Part shown: positions 1 through 57,587 of the stretch, piece by piece
Layout: every line of letters begins with the position of its first letter
Position numbering within the stretch: the first letter of the stretch is position 1
DNA from: Burkholderiales bacterium
GTDB taxonomy: Bacteria; Pseudomonadota; Gammaproteobacteria; Burkholderiales; Burkholderiaceae_E
Direction: 5' to 3'
Length of the DNA stretch: 64,000 nucleotides
NCBI GenBank assembly: GCA_026399835.1
Contig: JAPLQE010000016.1
Span: forward strand, 1-64,000
Notes under the pieces: model-generated
Told to the model about the DNA's origin: nothing
Seen by the model: only the letters and a program-made list of their open reading frames with translations
Database searches by the model: none
Position numbers and translations under genes: made by a program

Positions 1-112
1 CTGACGACCATAGCGAGTTGGAACCACCCCTTCCCATCCCGAACAGGACCGTGAAACGACTCTGCGCCGATGATAGTGAGCATTCGCTCGTGAAAGTAGG
101 ACATCGTCAGGC
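1..112 (+). rRNA. rrf: 5S ribosomal RNA (5' end cut by the window by about 2 nt)
   Basis: The sequence has the standard betaproteobacterial 5S blocks: CCCATCCCGAACAGGACCG in loops B/C, then CGTGAAACGACTC, GCCGATGATAGTG and GTGAAAGTAGGACATCGTCAGGC. The first bases CTGACGACC pair with the terminal CGTCAG to form helix I, so only a couple of 5' bases are missing. It is the last gene of an rRNA operon whose 16S and 23S genes lie to the left, outside the window. Confidence 0.97.
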
Positions 113-9552: not shown

Positions 9553-11604
9553 ATGACCGCCTCGTCCTCGTTGCCCGCCACCGGGCCGATCTGGCGTCCG
9601 TCGCCCGAGCGCATCGCGCGCGCGACGCTGACCCGCTACACCGACTGGCTGCGCCGCGAGCGCGGCCTCGACTTCCCGGACTACGAATCGCTGTGGCAAT
9701 GGTCGGTCGACGAGACCGCGGCGTTCTGGACGTCGATCTGGACCTTCTGCGGGATGCGCGCGTTCACGCCGTACCGCGAGGTGCTGCGCGAGGCGAAGAT
9801 GCCCGGCGCGGTCTGGTTCGACGGCGCCACCGTCAACTACGCCGACCAGATGCTGTGGCGCGCCGCCGAGCCGGGCTGGGCTGAACGCACCGCGATCGTG
9901 TTCTGGTCCGAGATCGTCGCGCGGCGCGAGGTGAGCTGGGGTGCGCTCGCCGCTGAGACGGGGGCGCTGGCCGCGACGATGGCGCGGCTCGGCGTGGGCT
10001 TCGGCGATCGCGCGGTGTCGTACATGCCGAACATTCCCGAGTCGATGACCGCGGTGCTCGCGAGCACCTCGCGCGGCGCGATCTGGTCGAGCTGCGCGCC
10101 CGACATGGGGGCCGCGGGCGTACTCGACCGCTTCCGGCAGATCGAGCCCCGGCTGCTGTTCGCGGTCGACGGCTACCGCTACGGCGGCAAGGACTTCGAC
10201 CGGCTCGACACGGTACGTGAACTGGTTGCGCAGCTGCCCTCGGTCGAGGCGGTGGTGCTCGTGCCCTATCTCGATCCGCAGGCCTCGCTCGGCGACGCGA
10301 TCGAGGTGCCGGCCCGCGACGGCGCACCCGCGCGCCGCGTGCCGGTGGTGTGCTGGGCCGATGCGCTCGCGCAGCCCGCGCCCTTCGTCGCGCAGCCGGT
10401 GCCCTTCGACCATCCGCTGTGGATCGTCTACTCGTCGGGCACCACCGGCATGCCCAAGCCGATCGTGCACGGCCATGGCGGCACGACGCTCGAGTACCTC
10501 AAGGCGATGCTGATCCACAGCGACCTCGGTGCGGACGACCGGTTCTTCTGGTTCACGTCCACCAACTGGATCATGTGGAACATGACGGTGTCGGCCCTCA
10601 TCCCGGGCAGCACCGTGCTGCTCTTCGACGGCAACCCCGGGTACCCCGATCTGGGCACGCTGTGGCGCTTCGCCGAGCGCGAGCGCGCGACCTTCTTCGG
10701 GCTGTCGCCCGCGTTCGTGCAGCTCAACGTCAAGCACGGCGCGAGCCCGCGCGAGCGCTTCGACCTGTCGTCGCTGCGCACCGTCGGCGCGACCGGCTCG
10801 CCGCTCACCGAGGACGGCTACCGCTGGATCTACGGGCACGTCCACCCCGACGTGCTGCTCGCCTCCATCAGCGGCGGCACCGACCCGAACACCGCCTTCC
10901 TGGGCACCTGCCCGACCGCGCCCATCTACGCGGGCGAGATGCAGGCGCGCGGGCTGGGTGCGGCCGTCTATGCCTACGACGACGCGGGCCGGGCGGTCTA
11001 CGGCGAGGTGGGCGAGCTGGTGTGCGCCAAGCCGATGCCGTCGATGCCGCTGCGCTTCTGGGGCGATGCGGAGGGCAAGCGCTACTTCGACAGCTACTTC
11101 GATGTCTATCCCGGCGTCTGGCGGCACGGTGACTGGCTCAAGCTCGAGCGCCGGCCCGAGACGGTCACCGGCGTGATCTACGGCCGCTCCGACTCGACGA
11201 TCAACCGGCACGGCATCCGCATGGGCACGAGCGAGCTCTATCGGGTCGTCGAGGGCTTCGACGAGGTGGCCGACTCGCTGGTCATCGACCTCGAGTACCT
11301 CGGACGCGAGTCGTTCATGGCGCTGTTCGTGGTGCCGCGCGCCCCGCACGCGCTGACCGATGCGCTCAAGCGCCGGCTGCTCGACGCGATCCGCACGCAG
11401 CTCTCGGCGCGTCACGTGCCGAACGACGTGTTCGAGATCCCGGAGGTGCCGCGGACGATCTCGGGCAAGAAGCTCGAGGTGCCGGTCAAGAAGATCCTGC
11501 TCGGGCAGCCGCCGGAGCGCGCCTGCAACCGCTCGGCGATGTCCAACCCCGGCTCGATCGACTGGTTCGTCGCCTTCGGGGCAGCGCGGGCCGCGGCGGG
11601 CTGA
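9553..11604 (+). CDS. Acetoacetyl-CoA synthetase (acetoacetate--CoA ligase)
   Basis: A 683-residue ATP-dependent ligase that activates acetoacetate to acetoacetyl-CoA for ketone-body or polyhydroxybutyrate metabolism. It has the ANL-superfamily AMP-binding motif YSSGTTGMPKPIVHGHGG (about residues 292-309), a long N-terminal domain (YESLWQWSVDETAAFWTSIW) typical of the acetyl-/acetoacetyl-CoA synthetase group, the hinge GRSDSTINRHGIRMG, and the C-terminal catalytic Lys in TISGKKLEVPVKKIL. GGAGA lies 8 nt before ATG 9553. Length and the ISGGTDPN block fit AacS rather than acetyl-CoA synthetase. Confidence 0.9.
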   Translation: MTASSSLPATGPIWRPSPERIARATLTRYTDWLRRERGLDFPDYESLWQWSVDETAAFWTSIWTFCGMRAFTPYREVLREAKMPGAVWFDGATVNYADQMLWRAAEPGWAERTAIVFWSEIVARREVSWGALAAETGALAATMARLGVGFGDRAVSYMPNIPESMTAVLASTSRGAIWSSCAPDMGAAGVLDRFRQIEPRLLFAVDGYRYGGKDFDRLDTVRELVAQLPSVEAVVLVPYLDPQASLGDAIEVPARDGAPARRVPVVCWADALAQPAPFVAQPVPFDHPLWIVYSSGTTGMPKPIVHGHGGTTLEYLKAMLIHSDLGADDRFFWFTSTNWIMWNMTVSALIPGSTVLLFDGNPGYPDLGTLWRFAERERATFFGLSPAFVQLNVKHGASPRERFDLSSLRTVGATGSPLTEDGYRWIYGHVHPDVLLASISGGTDPNTAFLGTCPTAPIYAGEMQARGLGAAVYAYDDAGRAVYGEVGELVCAKPMPSMPLRFWGDAEGKRYFDSYFDVYPGVWRHGDWLKLERRPETVTGVIYGRSDSTINRHGIRMGTSELYRVVEGFDEVADSLVIDLEYLGRESFMALFVVPRAPHALTDALKRRLLDAIRTQLSARHVPNDVFEIPEVPRTISGKKLEVPVKKILLGQPPERACNRSAMSNPGSIDWFVAFGAARAAAG

Positions 11605-11625
11605 CGCCCGGCGGTGACCGCCGCC

Positions 11626-11667
11626 GCCGGATCGGGACGCGCAGCAAGTTCGTTCGCGGCGTCTCAG
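11626..11667. repeat. 42-bp dispersed repeat, copy A, at a convergent gene end
   Basis: It starts with GCCGGATCGGGACGCGCAG and ends with TTCGCGGC-G-TCTCAG. The same 42-bp length and sequence, with about 7 substitutions in the middle, occurs at 55921-55962. In both places it lies after a plus-strand gene and covers the stop codon of the converging minus-strand gene (here the cheB stop, 11664-11666). GGGACGC can pair with GCGTCTC, so a hairpin is possible. Confidence 0.7.
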
Positions 11668-12716
11668 CCCCGCCGGTCGAAGCGCAGGATCTCGGCCGCG
11701 ATCCGGTCGAGCGGCAGCACCGCATCGGCACCGCCCAGCGCGATCGCTTCCTTGGGCATGCCGAACACCACGCAGGTCTCCTCGTTCTGCGCGACGGTGC
11801 GTGCGCCCCGGTCGTGCAGCGCCTTCATGCCGCGCGCGCCATCGTCGCCCATGCCGGTCAGGATGATCGCCAGCGCGTCGCGCCCCGCGCAGTCGGCCGC
11901 GGAGCGAAAGAGCACGTCCACGGAAGGCTTGTGCCGGTTGACCGGCGGGCCGTCTGCGATCTGGGCGAAGTACTGGCCGCCCGCCTTGCGCAGCTGCATG
12001 TGCCGCCCGCCCGGCGCGATCAGCACCACGCCGCGCTCCAGACGGTCGCCGTCGCGCGCCTCGCGCACGTTCATCTCGCAGGTGCCGTCCAGGCGCTGCG
12101 CATACATCGCCGTGAACTTCTCGGGCATGTGCTGGACGATCGCGATGCCGGGCGCGTCGCCCGGCAGCGCGAGCAGCACCGCCTCGATCGCCTGGGTGCC
12201 GCCGGTGGAGCTGCCGAGCACCACCGGCTTGTTCACCGACAGCGCGTGCAGGCCCTCGATCGGCGGGCGCGGCGCGGCGGGTGCCACGCGTGCAGATGCG
12301 GCCCCGCCGGCGCGCGGCCGGGCACGTGCGGCGGCCTTCAGCGTCTGCAGCAGCTCGCGCCGCGAATCCTCGAGGAACTGCTTGAGGCCGAGCCGCGGCT
12401 TGGCGACCACCGCCACCGCGCCGGCGGCCATCGCATCGAGCGCCATCTTGCTGCCGGCTTCCGTCAGCGTCGAGCAGATGACGGTCGGGATCGGCGACTC
12501 GTCCATGATCTGCCGCAGGAAGGTCAGGCCGTCCATTCCGGGCATCTCGATGTCGAGCAGCAGCACGTCGGGCCGGCGCCGCCGCAGCATCGGTGCCGCG
12601 ATCAGCGGGTTCGGTGCGCTGCCCATCAGCTCGATGTCCGGATCGTCCTTGAGCAGGTGCATCAGCGTCTGGCGTACCACCGCCGAATCGTCCACCACGA
12701 AGACCATGATCGCCAT
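11664..12716 (-). CDS. cheB: Chemotaxis protein-glutamate methylesterase/glutaminase CheB
   Basis: A 350-residue two-domain CheB. The N-terminal receiver domain carries the acidic pair DD (9-10), phospho-acceptor Asp55 (LLLDIEMPGMDG) and conserved Lys (VVAKPRLG). The C-terminal methylesterase domain has the Ser site GSSTGGTQAIE, the His site IVQHMPEKFTAMYAQRL and the Asp site LTGMGDDGARG. It removes methyl groups from receptor glutamates to drive adaptation. It is the last gene of the che operon, 18 bp after cheD. Its stop codon lies inside the 42-bp repeat. Confidence 0.95.
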   Translation of the reverse strand: MAIMVFVVDDSAVVRQTLMHLLKDDPDIELMGSAPNPLIAAPMLRRRRPDVLLLDIEMPGMDGLTFLRQIMDESPIPTVICSTLTEAGSKMALDAMAAGAVAVVAKPRLGLKQFLEDSRRELLQTLKAAARARPRAGGAASARVAPAAPRPPIEGLHALSVNKPVVLGSSTGGTQAIEAVLLALPGDAPGIAIVQHMPEKFTAMYAQRLDGTCEMNVREARDGDRLERGVVLIAPGGRHMQLRKAGGQYFAQIADGPPVNRHKPSVDVLFRSAADCAGRDALAIILTGMGDDGARGMKALHDRGARTVAQNEETCVVFGMPKEAIALGGADAVLPLDRIAAEILRFDRRG

Positions 12717-52568: not shown

Positions 52569-55014
52569 CCTGCTCGCCGCGTACCCGCGCGCCGAGCCCC
52601 GCTTCGACGAGATGCTCGGGGAGGACGGCCGTCCGCGCGCGCACTGGGCGCCGCTGGTGGACATGCTCACTCGGGCCGAGCCGGCACGCATGCGCGACCG
52701 GATCGCGACCATCGAGCGCGAGATCCGCGACAGCGGGCTGACGTACAACATGTACGCCGACCCCAAGGGCGCCGAGCGTCCCTGGGCACTCGATGCGCTG
52801 CCGATGATCATCCCCGCCGACGAGTGGCCGGCGATCGAGGCGGCGGTCGCGCAGCGCGCGCACCTGCTCGATGCGGTGCTGGCCGACCTCTATGGTCCGC
52901 AGCAGCTGCTCGCCGAAGGGCTGCTGCCACCGCGGCTCGTGCTCGGCCACAGCGCGTTCCGGCGTCCCGCCTGCGGCGCCACGCCGACCGGGCGGCCCTC
53001 GCTCGTGGTCTATGCGGCCGACCTCGCCCGCTCGCCCGACGGGCGCTGGTGGGTGGTCGCCGACCGCACTCAGGCGCCCTCGGGCGCGGGCTACGCGATC
53101 GAGAACCGGCTGATCGTCTCGAGGATCTTCCCGCAGCTCTTCCGCGACCTGCACGCGCAGCGGCTCGCCGGCTTCTTCGTCGCGCTGCGCGACACGCTGC
53201 GCGACTTCGCGCCCTCGGGCGACGGCCCCCAGCTCACGGTGCTGCTCACGCCCGGGCCGTACAACGAGACCTATTCCGAGCACTCCCTGCTCGCGCGCTA
53301 CCTGGGCCTGACGCTCGTCGAGGGCAGCGACCTCGCGGTGCGCGGCGGCAAGGTCTGGCTCAAGACCGTCGAGGGCCTGCGCCGCGTGCACGCGATCCTG
53401 CGCCGCCAGGACGACGACTTCTGCGATCCGCTCGAGCTGCGCTCCGACTCCGCGCTCGGCGTACCCGGCCTGACCGACTGCGCGCGCCGCGGCAGCGTGC
53501 TGATGGCCAACGCGATCGGCTCGGGCGTGCTCGAGTCGGGCGCGATGATGGGCTTCCTGCCGCGTCTGTCCGAGCGCCTGCTCGGCGAGCCGCTGAAGAT
53601 GCCGTCGATCGCGACCTGGTGGCTCGGCGAGCCCGCCGCGCTCGCCGACGCGCTGCCGCGGATGTCGCAGCTGGTGTTCAAGCCCGCCGATCCGGTGCTG
53701 CGCGAGGAGCCGGTCTTCGGCCAGGACCTCGATGCGGCCGGCGCGCGCTCGCTCGCCGCACGGATCCGCCGTCACCCCGAAGCCTGGATCGCGCAGGAGC
53801 TGGTGCGGCTGTCGCAGGCACCGGTCTACGACCGCACGCGCCCCGGGCACCTCGGCGCGCGCGCCGTTGGACTGCGCGTGTTCGCGGTCGCCTCGCGCGG
53901 CGGCTGGACGGTGATGCCGGGCGGCCTCGCACGGGTCGCGGGCTCGCACGATGCGCGGGTCATCTCGATGCAGCGCGGCGGCGCCTCCAAGGACACCTGG
54001 GTGCTCGCCAGCGCGCCGGCCGAGGGCGCGCTCACGCTGCTGCGCTCCACCGTCGGTGCCGACGAGCTGGTGCGCAGCGGCTCGTCGACGCTGTCCTCGC
54101 GCGCCGCCGAGAACCTCTTCTGGCTCGGGCGCTACTCCGAGCGGGCCGAGGACTCGGCACGGCTGCTGCGCGTCGCGCTGCCGCGCTTCTCGGTCGACGA
54201 CGACGTCGACCGCGCCGCACAGGCCCCGCTGCTGGCGCTGGGCCGCGCGCTCGGCGTCGTCGACGACGAGGTCGAGACCGAGACCGCGCTGCTCGATTCG
54301 CTCTACGAGGCCGAGCGCATGGGCGGCCTGCGCACGACGCTGCTGCAGGTGCAGCGCGTCGCCTTCGGCCTGCGCGACCGGCTCTCGGTCGATCACTGGC
54401 GGACCATCAACCGGCTGCTGCAGGACCCGGCCTTCGACGCCTTCCGCGAGCTGCCGCAGGCGATGGGCCTGCTCGACCGCATCGTCGACGGGCTGGTCAC
54501 GCAGTCGGGCTTCGCGCTCGACGGCATGACGCGCGACACCGGCTGGCGCTTCATGTCGATCGGCCGGCGCATCGAGCGGCTGCGCGCGATCTGTGCCGCC
54601 GTCGCCTGCGCCGCCCGCGAGGGCCGCTCGGCCGGCCTCGACTGGCTGCTCGAGTTCTGCGACTCGTCGATCACCTACCGCTCGCGCTACATGGGCCAGC
54701 CCGAGTGGCTGCCCGCGCTCGACCTGGTGATCCGCGACGAGACCAATCCGCGCTCGGTCGCATTCCAGCTGCGCGGCCTGGCCGACGTGCTGGCCCGCGT
54801 GGACCACGCCCTGGCCGGTGCCGGCGCAGACCTCGCGCCCGCCGTGCTCGCGAACCTCGGGCCGCTCGAGGACGCGACCGCGCTGGTGCCCGACGCGGTC
54901 CTCGCGGCGCGGCTCGACGCGATCGCCGACGGCGCGGCCGCGCTCTCCGATCGCCTGTCGCTGCGCTTCTTCGCGCATGCCGACGAGCGCGGCCGCGCCA
55001 CGCTCGCGGCCTGA
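52561..55014 (+). CDS. Circularly permuted ATP-grasp and alpha-E domain protein
   Basis: An 817-residue protein starting at GTG 52561. The N-terminal 480 residues are the circularly permuted ATP-grasp region (DUF404/DUF407 type): LTYNMYADPKGAERPWALDA, VLGHSAFRRPACG, LTVLLTPGPYNETYSEHSLL, TWWLGEPAALADALPRM, HPEAWIAQELVRLSQAP. The C-terminal 300 residues are the helical alpha-E domain (LSSRAAENLFWLGRYSERAE, WRFMSIGRRIERLRAICAAV, QPEWLPALDLVIRDETNPRS). In other bacteria the two domains are often adjacent or fused and are predicted to ligate peptides. It is coupled to both neighbours. Confidence 0.9.
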   Translation: MRDLLAAYPRAEPRFDEMLGEDGRPRAHWAPLVDMLTRAEPARMRDRIATIEREIRDSGLTYNMYADPKGAERPWALDALPMIIPADEWPAIEAAVAQRAHLLDAVLADLYGPQQLLAEGLLPPRLVLGHSAFRRPACGATPTGRPSLVVYAADLARSPDGRWWVVADRTQAPSGAGYAIENRLIVSRIFPQLFRDLHAQRLAGFFVALRDTLRDFAPSGDGPQLTVLLTPGPYNETYSEHSLLARYLGLTLVEGSDLAVRGGKVWLKTVEGLRRVHAILRRQDDDFCDPLELRSDSALGVPGLTDCARRGSVLMANAIGSGVLESGAMMGFLPRLSERLLGEPLKMPSIATWWLGEPAALADALPRMSQLVFKPADPVLREEPVFGQDLDAAGARSLAARIRRHPEAWIAQELVRLSQAPVYDRTRPGHLGARAVGLRVFAVASRGGWTVMPGGLARVAGSHDARVISMQRGGASKDTWVLASAPAEGALTLLRSTVGADELVRSGSSTLSSRAAENLFWLGRYSERAEDSARLLRVALPRFSVDDDVDRAAQAPLLALGRALGVVDDEVETETALLDSLYEAERMGGLRTTLLQVQRVAFGLRDRLSVDHWRTINRLLQDPAFDAFRELPQAMGLLDRIVDGLVTQSGFALDGMTRDTGWRFMSIGRRIERLRAICAAVACAAREGRSAGLDWLLEFCDSSITYRSRYMGQPEWLPALDLVIRDETNPRSVAFQLRGLADVLARVDHALAGAGADLAPAVLANLGPLEDATALVPDAVLAARLDAIADGAAALSDRLSLRFFAHADERGRATLAA

Positions 55015-55018
55015 GCCC

Positions 55019-55897
55019 ATGGGCGCATCGCGCGTCGTGCACGTCGTGCACGAGACCGAATACCGCTACGACGCGCCGGTCTCGCAGTCGTGGCAGCTCG
55101 CCCACCTCGCGCCGCGCGCCTGCGCGAGGCAGCACGTGCTCGAGCACCGCCTCGCGGTGACGCCGCGCCCCGACTGGATCGACGCGCACACCGATGCGTT
55201 CGGCAACGCGGTCGCCGCCTTCGCGATCCACGCCGCGCACGAGCGTCTCGACGTCGTCGCCGAGTCGCGCATCGAGATCGCGCCGCCCCTGCACGACACC
55301 GAGGCCGCGCTGCGGCCCTTCGACCCCGCGGCCGCGCGCCGCACCAGCGGCCGCGAGGCGCTCGAGCTCGCGTCCTTCTTCGGCCCGAGCCCGCTGGTGC
55401 CGCGCTCGCGGCGGGCCGTGCACTACGCGGCGCGCAGCTTCCGGCCGGGCGTGCCCTTCATCGTCGCCCTCGACGAGCTCGCGCACCGCATCCACCGCGA
55501 CTTCGAGTTCGATGCCGAGGCCACCACCGTGACCACGCCGCTCGAGGAGGTGTTCGCCGAGCGGCGCGGGGTGTGCCAGGACTTCGCGCAGCTGATGATC
55601 GCGTGCCTGCGCGGCGTGGGCGTGCCGGCCCGCTACGTGTCCGGCTACATCCTCACCCGCCCGCCGCCGGGCAAGCCGCGGCTGGTCGGCGCCGACGCCT
55701 CGCACGCCTGGGTGTCCGCCTGGTGCCCGGGGCAGGGCTGGATCGACGTCGATCCGACCAACGACCGACGCGTCGACCAGGACTTCGTGACGCTCGGCTG
55801 GGGCCGGGACTTCTCCGACGTGACGCCGCTGCGCGGCGTGATCCTCGGCGGCGGCGCGCAGGCCCTCGAGGCGCGCGTGACGGTCACGCCCGAGTAA
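55019..55897 (+). CDS. Transglutaminase-like cysteine peptidase-fold protein
   Basis: A 292-residue protein: N domain VVHVVHETEYRYDAPVSQSW, then the transglutaminase core with Cys (AERRGVCQDFAQLMIACLRG), His (GADASHAWVSAWCPGQGWID) and Asp (DVDPTND). It is predicted to hydrolyse or transfer on amide bonds. ATG 55019 lies 4 bp after the ATP-grasp stop. As third gene of the operon it completes the conserved trio transglutaminase-DUF2126 / ATP-grasp-alpha-E / transglutaminase. Confidence 0.9.
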   Translation: MGASRVVHVVHETEYRYDAPVSQSWQLAHLAPRACARQHVLEHRLAVTPRPDWIDAHTDAFGNAVAAFAIHAAHERLDVVAESRIEIAPPLHDTEAALRPFDPAAARRTSGREALELASFFGPSPLVPRSRRAVHYAARSFRPGVPFIVALDELAHRIHRDFEFDAEATTVTTPLEEVFAERRGVCQDFAQLMIACLRGVGVPARYVSGYILTRPPPGKPRLVGADASHAWVSAWCPGQGWIDVDPTNDRRVDQDFVTLGWGRDFSDVTPLRGVILGGGAQALEARVTVTPE

Positions 55898-55920
55898 GCG
55901 AGGGCACTCGCTCCTCAGAA

Positions 55921-55962
55921 GCCGGATCGGGACGCGCAGTAGGTGTATTCGCGGCTTCTCAG
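55921..55962. repeat. 42-bp dispersed repeat, copy B, at a convergent gene end
   Basis: Same element as 11626-11667, starting GCCGGATCGGGACGCGCAG and ending TTCGCGGC-T-TCTCAG. It covers the stop of the converging CoA-ligase gene (55959-55961). AGAAGCCG (55918-55925) and CGGCTTCT (about 55951-55958) form a perfect 8-bp stem closing the element, and the stem-base difference relative to copy A is partly compensated. Confidence 0.7.
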
Positions 55963-57587
55963 TCGCGCAGCCTGAAGCGCTGGAGCTTGCCGGTCTCGGT
56001 GCGCGGCAGCGCGTCCCGGAACTCGATCGCACGCGGGTACTTGTACGGCGCGATCGTCGCCTTCACATGGTCCTGCAGCGCCCGCGCCATCGCCGCGTCG
56101 CCCATGTGCCCGGGCGCCAGCACGACGAAGGCCTTCACCACCGTGCCGCGCTCCTCGTCGGGCACGCCGATCACGCCGGCCTCGGCGACCGCCTCGTGGG
56201 TGAGCAGCGCGGCCTCGACCTCCGGGCCCGCGATGTTGTAGCCGGCCGAGACGATCATGTCGTCCGAACGCGCGTGGTACGCGAAGTAGCCGTCAGCGTC
56301 CATCGAGAAGGTGTCGCCGGTCAGGTTCCAGCCGTCGCACACGTACTGGGCCTGGCGCGCGTCGGCCAGGTAGCGGCAGCCGGTCGGGCCGCGCACCGCG
56401 AGCCGGCCGGGTTCGCCGGGCGGCAGCGTGCGCATCGCGTCGTCGACGATGCGGGCCTCGTAGCCGGGGATCACCCGGCCGATCGTGCCGCGGCGCACCG
56501 ACTCCGGCGGCGACGAGATGAAGATGTGGATCAGCTCGGTCGAGCCGATGCCGTCGATCATCTCCAGGCCGCTCGCCTGCTTCCAGAGCTGGCGCGTCGC
56601 ATCGGGCAGCGCCTCGCCGGCCGACACGCTCGCCCGCAGCGAGGACAGGTCGAACTCGCCCACGCGCGCGGCCATCTGCCGGTAGAAGGTCGGCGCGGTG
56701 AACACCACGGTCGCGCGGTGCCGGGCGATTGCGGCGAGCAGCGAGTCGGGCGAGGCGCGCTCGAGCAGCAGCGTCGAGGCGCCCACCCGCATCGGGAAAC
56801 ACAGCATGCCGCCCAGGCCGAAGGTGAACGCGAGCGGCGGCGTGCCGCAGTAGATGTCGTCGGCGTGCGTGCGCAGCACCGAGCGCGGGAACAGGTCGCA
56901 CATCGCGAGCACGTCGCGATGGAAGTGCATCGTGCCCTTGGGCTGGCCGGTGGTGCCCGAGGTGAAGGCGATCAGCGCGACATCGTCCTGCGCGGTGTCG
57001 CAGCCCGCGAAGTCGGCGGGCTTGGCGGCGGCCCGCGCCTCGAGCGAGCCGGCGCGCGCGCCGCCTACCGTGCCGTCGCCGTCGTCGAACCAGAGCACCT
57101 GCGCCAGCGACGGGCACTGCGCCTGCGCCAGGCGCATCTCGTCGGCGAGGCGCGCATCGCACAGCGCCGCCGTGACGCGCGCCTTCTCGATCACCGGCAC
57201 CAGCTCGCGGGCCCGCAGCAGCGGCATGGTCGCCACCGCCACCAGCCCGCACTTGATCACCGCCAGCCAGCACGCGGCCATCATCGGCGAGTTCGGTCCA
57301 CGCAGCAGCACGCGGTTGCCCGGCACCAGCGCCAGGTCCTCCACCAGCACGCGGCAGATCCGGTCGACCTGCGCCTGCAGCTGCCGATAGGTGCAGCTCG
57401 CCGCGTCGGTGCGCAGCGCGATGCGATCGCCGTGGCCCGCCGAGACCGCGCCGTCGAGCAGCGCGACCGCGCAGTTCAGACGCTCCGGATACCGGAGCTC
57501 GGGCCGATCCAGCAGGAAGTCCGGCCACTGCCCGGGCGGCGGCAGGTTGTCGCGGGTGAAGGGGTCGACGTGGGCGCTGCGGAACAT
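55959..57587 (-). CDS. Aromatic-acid-type CoA ligase (benzoate / 2-aminobenzoate-CoA ligase family)
   Basis: A 542-residue ANL-superfamily ligase. AMP-binding motif IAFTSGTTGQPKGTMHFHRD (about residues 207-226), GTPPLAFTFGLGGMLCFPMR, IDGIGSTELIHIFISSP, hinge ARSDDMIVSAGYNIAGPEVE, catalytic Lys in RTETGKLQRFRLRD. The IGSTELIHIF block resembles the benzoate- and 2-aminobenzoate-CoA ligase group. It is the last gene of the operon with an acyl-CoA dehydrogenase, a hydratase and a MarR gene. Similar sets occur with salicylyl- or 2-aminobenzoyl-CoA oxygenases, but no oxygenase is present here. Substrate is therefore inferred only broadly. Confidence 0.8.
   Translation of the reverse strand: MFRSAHVDPFTRDNLPPPGQWPDFLLDRPELRYPERLNCAVALLDGAVSAGHGDRIALRTDAASCTYRQLQAQVDRICRVLVEDLALVPGNRVLLRGPNSPMMAACWLAVIKCGLVAVATMPLLRARELVPVIEKARVTAALCDARLADEMRLAQAQCPSLAQVLWFDDGDGTVGGARAGSLEARAAAKPADFAGCDTAQDDVALIAFTSGTTGQPKGTMHFHRDVLAMCDLFPRSVLRTHADDIYCGTPPLAFTFGLGGMLCFPMRVGASTLLLERASPDSLLAAIARHRATVVFTAPTFYRQMAARVGEFDLSSLRASVSAGEALPDATRQLWKQASGLEMIDGIGSTELIHIFISSPPESVRRGTIGRVIPGYEARIVDDAMRTLPPGEPGRLAVRGPTGCRYLADARQAQYVCDGWNLTGDTFSMDADGYFAYHARSDDMIVSAGYNIAGPEVEAALLTHEAVAEAGVIGVPDEERGTVVKAFVVLAPGHMGDAAMARALQDHVKATIAPYKYPRAIEFRDALPRTETGKLQRFRLRD

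Follow-up and report, generated by a model that had tools for sequence, protein, structure and literature searches.

The two related repeats in the window, by which we mean the whole 64,000-nt stretch analysed from a Burkholderiales bacterium (contig JAPLQE010000016.1), are best explained as decayed copies of a non-autonomous MITE family mobilised by IS5-superfamily transposases, a reading to which we assign a probability of roughly 0.78. The element is a ~124-bp imperfect palindrome made up of terminal inverted repeats (TIRs) and a hairpin core, without any open reading frame (ORF). Judging from the family alignment, both window copies are internally shortened, decayed forms of this element (41 and ~61 bp). 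The original prediction had offered several readings of the repeat, and the one strongly supported is the trace of a small mobile sequence inserting at gene ends, with empty sites, target duplications, about 26 copies, a bias to stop codons and a patchy presence within the genus all in its favour.

Both positions of the 42-bp repeat (11626-11667 and 55921-55962) were confirmed in the sequence, as was the identity of the 19 leading bases; by eye we counted 36 of 42 identical positions, where ~35 had been estimated. Each 42-mer does include the stop codon at which the minus-strand gene ends (position 11664 for cheB, 55959 for the CoA ligase gene). The 42-bp segments cut across the true units, the extents of which are given in Table 1. 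Copy 2 has intact TIRs (GAAGCCG/CGGCTTC) and TCA on both flanks, which is TGA on the minus strand, and the stop codon of the transglutaminase-like gene lies ~20 bp away. Copy 1 has imperfect TIRs (GACGCC/GGCGTC) and has kept the left-arm core CTGCGCGTCCCGATCCGGC on the minus strand. It occupies the entire gap between two convergent stop codons, and the plus-strand TGA has its T outside and its GA inside the other TIR. The description of the repeat as lying at convergent gene ends holds for both window copies but not as a general rule, as several copies are found between tandem genes (e.g., L017, L022). Elsewhere in the window, a 5S rRNA is located at 1-112 (+), and because this is the start of the contig, an rRNA operon is the probable place of the contig break. 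The segment 63261-63324 (+) matches Rfam RF02278, a Betaproteobacteria toxic small RNA, with 66.9 bits.

Table 1. Positions of the two element copies in the window and of the stop codons and target duplications beside them.
Feature	Position	Strand	Description and basis
Copy 1	11603..11663 (approximate)	-	Short (~61 bp), degraded element; sequence and family alignment
TGA stop codon of cheB	11664..11666	-	Abuts copy 1; ORF 11664..12716 minus; Pfam CheB_methylest
TGA stop codon of AMP-binding (acetoacetyl-CoA synthetase-like) gene	11602..11604	+	ORF end 11604; Pfam AMP-binding, ACAS_N
Copy 2	55918..55958	-	41-bp internally deleted element GAAGCCGCGAATACACCTACTGCGCGTCCCGATCCGGCTTC (minus strand); sequence and family alignment
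TGA, CoA ligase stop codon and one copy of the target-site duplication	55959..55961	-	ORF 55959..57587 minus; Pfam AMP-binding
TGA (TCA on +), second copy of the target-site duplication beside copy 2	55915..55917	-	Sequence
Stop codon of convergent transglutaminase-like gene	55895..55897	+	ORF 54818..55897 plus; Pfam Transglut_core

The 102-bp region around copy 1 matched 17 places in the source genome (4.95 Mb, 93 contigs) at E ≤ 0.001, and the exact 19-mer leader occurred eight times, along with a series of copies with 1-2 mismatches in the same context. The match between the two window copies is therefore not due to chance. Several searches collated by hand gave about 26 element loci in this genome, biased to gene ends, so the repeat is not limited to the two copies first noticed. 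Three congeners (G008, G010, G011) yielded 20-23 element alignments each, and searches of eight other congeners, among them G005 with 5.1 Mb, gave no match. With a covariance model and a threshold of E ≤ 1e-5 the element was detected in 63 of 300 sampled Burkholderiales genomes, roughly a fifth. The core pattern, searched in GTDB contigs, also matched Zoogloea, Rhodocyclaceae, Hydrogenophilus, Polaromonas, Variovorax and two Pseudomonas. The Pseudomonas loci, beyond the Burkholderiales, are long variants at the end of the same gene in Pseudomonas sp. ML96 and P. alcaligenes (L122, L169). Mobile-replicon records contained a single plasmid match, and phage records contained none. Diverged elements were also seen in tandem arrays with ~125-bp spacing (L088, L099, L107; G015:C22:37532-37880), and adjacent copies occur in G014, G175 and G206.

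Read along the direction of the abutting gene, the full unit is TGA / GAAGCCGTGAATAAACCTACTGCGCGTCCCGATCCGGCGCCTGCGGTGCTCGCCGTAC - loop - GTACGGCTGCGCTCCTCGGCGCCGGCTCGGGCCTGCTCGCTACGGTTTCTTCACGGCTTC / TGA, and it folds as one long irregular hairpin whose outer 14-17 bp are the TIRs. Size variants range from ~41 bp to >200 bp; some copies are truncated, and others carry an additional inner hairpin, with a total of ~190-200 bp in the source genus. At least 7 of the 8 terminal bases were complementary in 55 of 62 copies (total 447, compared with 319 in shuffles). Across 34 full copies, 95.8% of the cells of a 43-pair hairpin were paired, changes on both sides were present in 21 of the 43 pairs, and the covariation score was 0.276, compared with 0.108 for shuffled and at most 0.059 for slid versions. 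The partial compensation initially noted in the outer stem is thus strong when tested on these 34 copies. This covariation proves the hairpin and not an RNA function, because the inverted ends of a transposon give such covariation too.

Direct evidence for insertion came from empty sites, which were sought with the joined flanks of several source-genome loci. The clearest filled site reads GGC-TGA-GAAGCC...GGCTTC-TGA-GCGCGCCGCGAAAGG, and its empty counterpart in G008 reads GGT-TGA-GCGCGCCGCGAAAGG, in a region that is 95% identical. In this pair TGA is duplicated, and the stop codon stays in place in the filled allele. Loci L016, L019 and L022 provided more empty sites. Exact 3-bp duplications flank 26 of the 62 longer copies (25 TGA, 1 TCA), and the same duplications are readable as CTGAG/CTGAG in 17 of 60. 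Both readings fit because the site and the TIR ends G...C together are almost symmetric, and from the sequences the duplication length in the source lineage would lie between 3 and 5 bp. More than half of the copies have no exact duplication, which may reflect either decay or another route. In genus g74, exact 4-bp duplications of varied sequence were found in 13 of 15 cases, compared with 1.65 in shuffles.

The position relative to stop codons was evaluated with a frame test using third-position GC. By this test a gene-like frame ends where the element begins in 79 of 84 copies, usually in a TGA immediately ahead of it, and a conservative count places 68 of 84 at stop codons. Within a genome the orientation of the element relative to the stop codon is fixed; it is reversed in G080. 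The copies in genus g74 lie at arbitrary 4-bp targets, mostly away from stop codons. As a baseline, we determined how many potential sites in the window are already stop codons. This was the case for 39 of 209 TGA sites outside coding sequence (19%), for 36% of TGAG sites outside genes, and for 11 of 18 CTGAG sites outside coding sequence (61%), the latter fraction resting on 18 sites and a rough gene caller. The excess of copies at stop codons is enormous relative to the TGA baseline, still large relative to TGAG, and modest relative to CTGAG. True stop-codon targeting as the cause of the bias is weakened by the CTGAG baseline. We infer that a CTGAG/CTAG-like target, together with the removal of insertions inside genes, accounts for most of the bias, with a residual excess remaining. 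The element also appears to alter gene ends: at L024 (G000:C71:52185-52229) the final codons of a neighbouring convergent biotin-carboxyl-carrier-like gene, including its TAG stop, seem to come from a truncated copy.

The same placement could be explained by a 3′-end RNA element, in which a hairpin co-transcribed with the upstream gene terminates transcription or makes the mRNA more stable, and selection retains the copies at stop codons, a role also proposed for YPAL of Yersinia. We consider this unlikely, even though several observations fit it: the position immediately behind the stop codon, the stop-codon fraction above even the CTGAG baseline, the compensatory changes in the stem and an RNA fold that is predicted to be very stable (full copies, about -80 kcal/mol). 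Complementarity of the TIRs is, however, expected of any transposon, the same genes are found without the element in sister genomes, and the g74 copies are mostly not at stop codons. By inspection, the folded copies showed no U tract 3′ of the G+C-rich stem, and for eight element loci none of the curated Rfam models matched up to E = 1. Since lineages differ in which side of the element faces the stop codon, as G080 shows, an insertion mechanism fits better than a strand-specific RNA function. The proposal of a bidirectional terminator family therefore did not gain support, very stable as the hairpin is. A terminator or 3′UTR function is possible.

Returning to the transposon reading, we compared how well core and ends are conserved in 45 loci, with one locus taken from most genomes. 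In the core, conservation at CTACTGCGCG and CGCTCGCTACG is mostly 95-100%, compared with an average of roughly 55% for the outer ~16 positions, and the TIRs differ by lineage around the near-invariant core. In the Polaromonas copy L120 the TIR GAAGGTGCGAATAA(ACC) has 14 contiguous bases in common with the IS5 end GGAAGGTGCGAATAAG, which was verified in the annotated E. coli IS5. This IS5-like match is confined to one TIR subtype; the source-genome TIR GAAGCCGTGAATAA equals IS5 at 11 of 14 positions. Genome G091 contains a resident multicopy 1258-bp IS with an NF033581 transposase (IS5 family) and the TIRs GGCCACCTCTAAAAACC/GGCCACCTCGAATAACC, which shows the 4-bp duplications TTAA, TGAA, TCAA and TTCC. 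The elements in this genome bear TIRs of the GGGCACCTCGAAAAACC type, their duplications include ATAA, TTAT and TTAC, and 14 of 17 bases match between the element TIR and that of the resident IS. The match to IS ends is solid in one genome (G091) and one TIR subtype, and is extrapolated elsewhere. An autonomous IS with the TIRs of the element was not found in the source genome or two sister genomes using a search pattern that favoured core-bearing ends. Draft assemblies tend to lose IS copies. PF01609 transposases were absent from the element-bearing G008, G011 and G018, the source genus had no PF13586 transposase, and in G103 the TIRs of the element were on none of the IS copies sampled.

We propose that the outer 14-17 bp would serve as IS5-superfamily-type TIRs, at which an IS5-superfamily DDE transposase acting in trans would excise and insert the element and duplicate the target. 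In the source lineage the element would prefer CTGAG or CTAG as its target. Where a genome is compact and rich in GC, such sites would, outside coding sequence, mostly be the stop codons of genes; surviving insertions would thus lie exactly at gene ends, and the asymmetric TGA would set the fixed orientation. Both the mobilisation by IS5-type transposases and the target preference as the cause of the stop-codon bias are parts of the model that we infer.

The hypothesis of a REP/BIME element that owes its spread to a RAYT (Y1 tyrosine) transposase is largely refuted, and with it the REP-like reading of the original prediction. The element is palindromic, extragenic and chromosomal, apart from the one plasmid record, and has CTAC/GTAG motifs near the core, but the GTAG does not mark the base of a short hairpin. 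The unit is a long palindrome with TIRs and not a 20-40 bp hairpin with a GTAG foot, and no RAYT gene was found to go with it. The Y1/RAYT gene does not track the element: PF01797 genes are absent from the element-bearing G014, G015, G018 and G030 but occur in congeners that lack it. Within the genus a single Y1/RAYT-type gene was seen; it is inherited vertically, and QVQ stands where the HUH motif would be expected. The element also duplicates its target, unlike members of the IS200/IS605 group. The Y1/RAYT-like gene was located beside a dgt-like dNTPase gene in the six congeners searched with the protein (L195, L196, L198, L201-L206), with QVQ wherever the motif was read (L195, L196, L198), and from its sequence it possibly encodes a domesticated, catalytically dead transposase-like protein. 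Even more improbable is an attC-like recombination site left by a chromosomal integron: such sites, too, adjoin stop codons and form long imperfect palindromes, and the ~124-bp imperfect palindrome with conserved mismatches directly behind stop codons resembles them, but no RYYYAAC/GTTRRRY boxes were seen by eye in A1 and its flanks, the copies are dispersed and not in cassette arrays, and target duplications together with empty sites point to transposition.

The element shows several features of a MITE, being short (~124 bp), multicopy (about 26 copies in the source genome) and without a transposase ORF, and having TIRs, duplicated target sites and empty sites. The usual definition of a MITE rests on conserved TIRs. 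Like IS5-superfamily MITEs, the element carries IS5-superfamily-type TIRs and short target duplications, but it keeps its inner core across dozens of families while the TIRs vary by lineage. Among other miniature elements, YPAL is reportedly biased to sites just behind stop codons, as De Gregorio is said to have described in 2006. YPAL (RU-2) of Yersinia comprises ~168-bp palindromic miniature intergenic insertions with target duplications, empty and filled sites and a proposed influence on the upstream transcript (PMC2229807). The element shares the palindromic, miniature and intergenic nature and the target duplications, but is set apart by the published description of YPAL, which has duplications of 3-26 bp, internal inverted repeats and targets at or next to dyad symmetries; here the duplications are TGA/CTGAG or 4 bp and the TIRs are of IS5 type. 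ERIC and Correia (NEMIS) elements are likewise ~100-160 bp imperfect palindromes, mostly intergenic, with TIRs and target duplications, but have 5′-TA-3′ at their termini (PMC2229807), unlike the element. GTAG and CGTC REPs are also palindromic extragenic repeats, the latter without a dedicated transposase (PMC3733652), but REPs are 20-40 bp tagged hairpins, whereas the element is ~124 bp long with TIRs and duplications.

The uncommon feature is a conserved hairpin core on exchangeable IS ends. Our best guess is that the core helps the element to transpose or the hairpin to persist. More tentatively, the conserved core could be the real selfish unit, swapping its ends for those of resident IS5-superfamily transposons and hitchhiking on unrelated transposases, an idea that we hold to be less probable than not. 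The core 16-mer was absent from open full-text papers, to which the search was limited. According to a review, the genome paper of Polaromonas JS666 is said to report a MITE, which may or may not be the element described here. Taken together, these data delimit a miniature element that is widespread in Burkholderiales and appears not to have been described before. It illustrates how insertions can come to lie exactly at stop codons through a site preference, and it raises the puzzle of an internal hairpin that is near invariant while the ends read by the transposase get exchanged.
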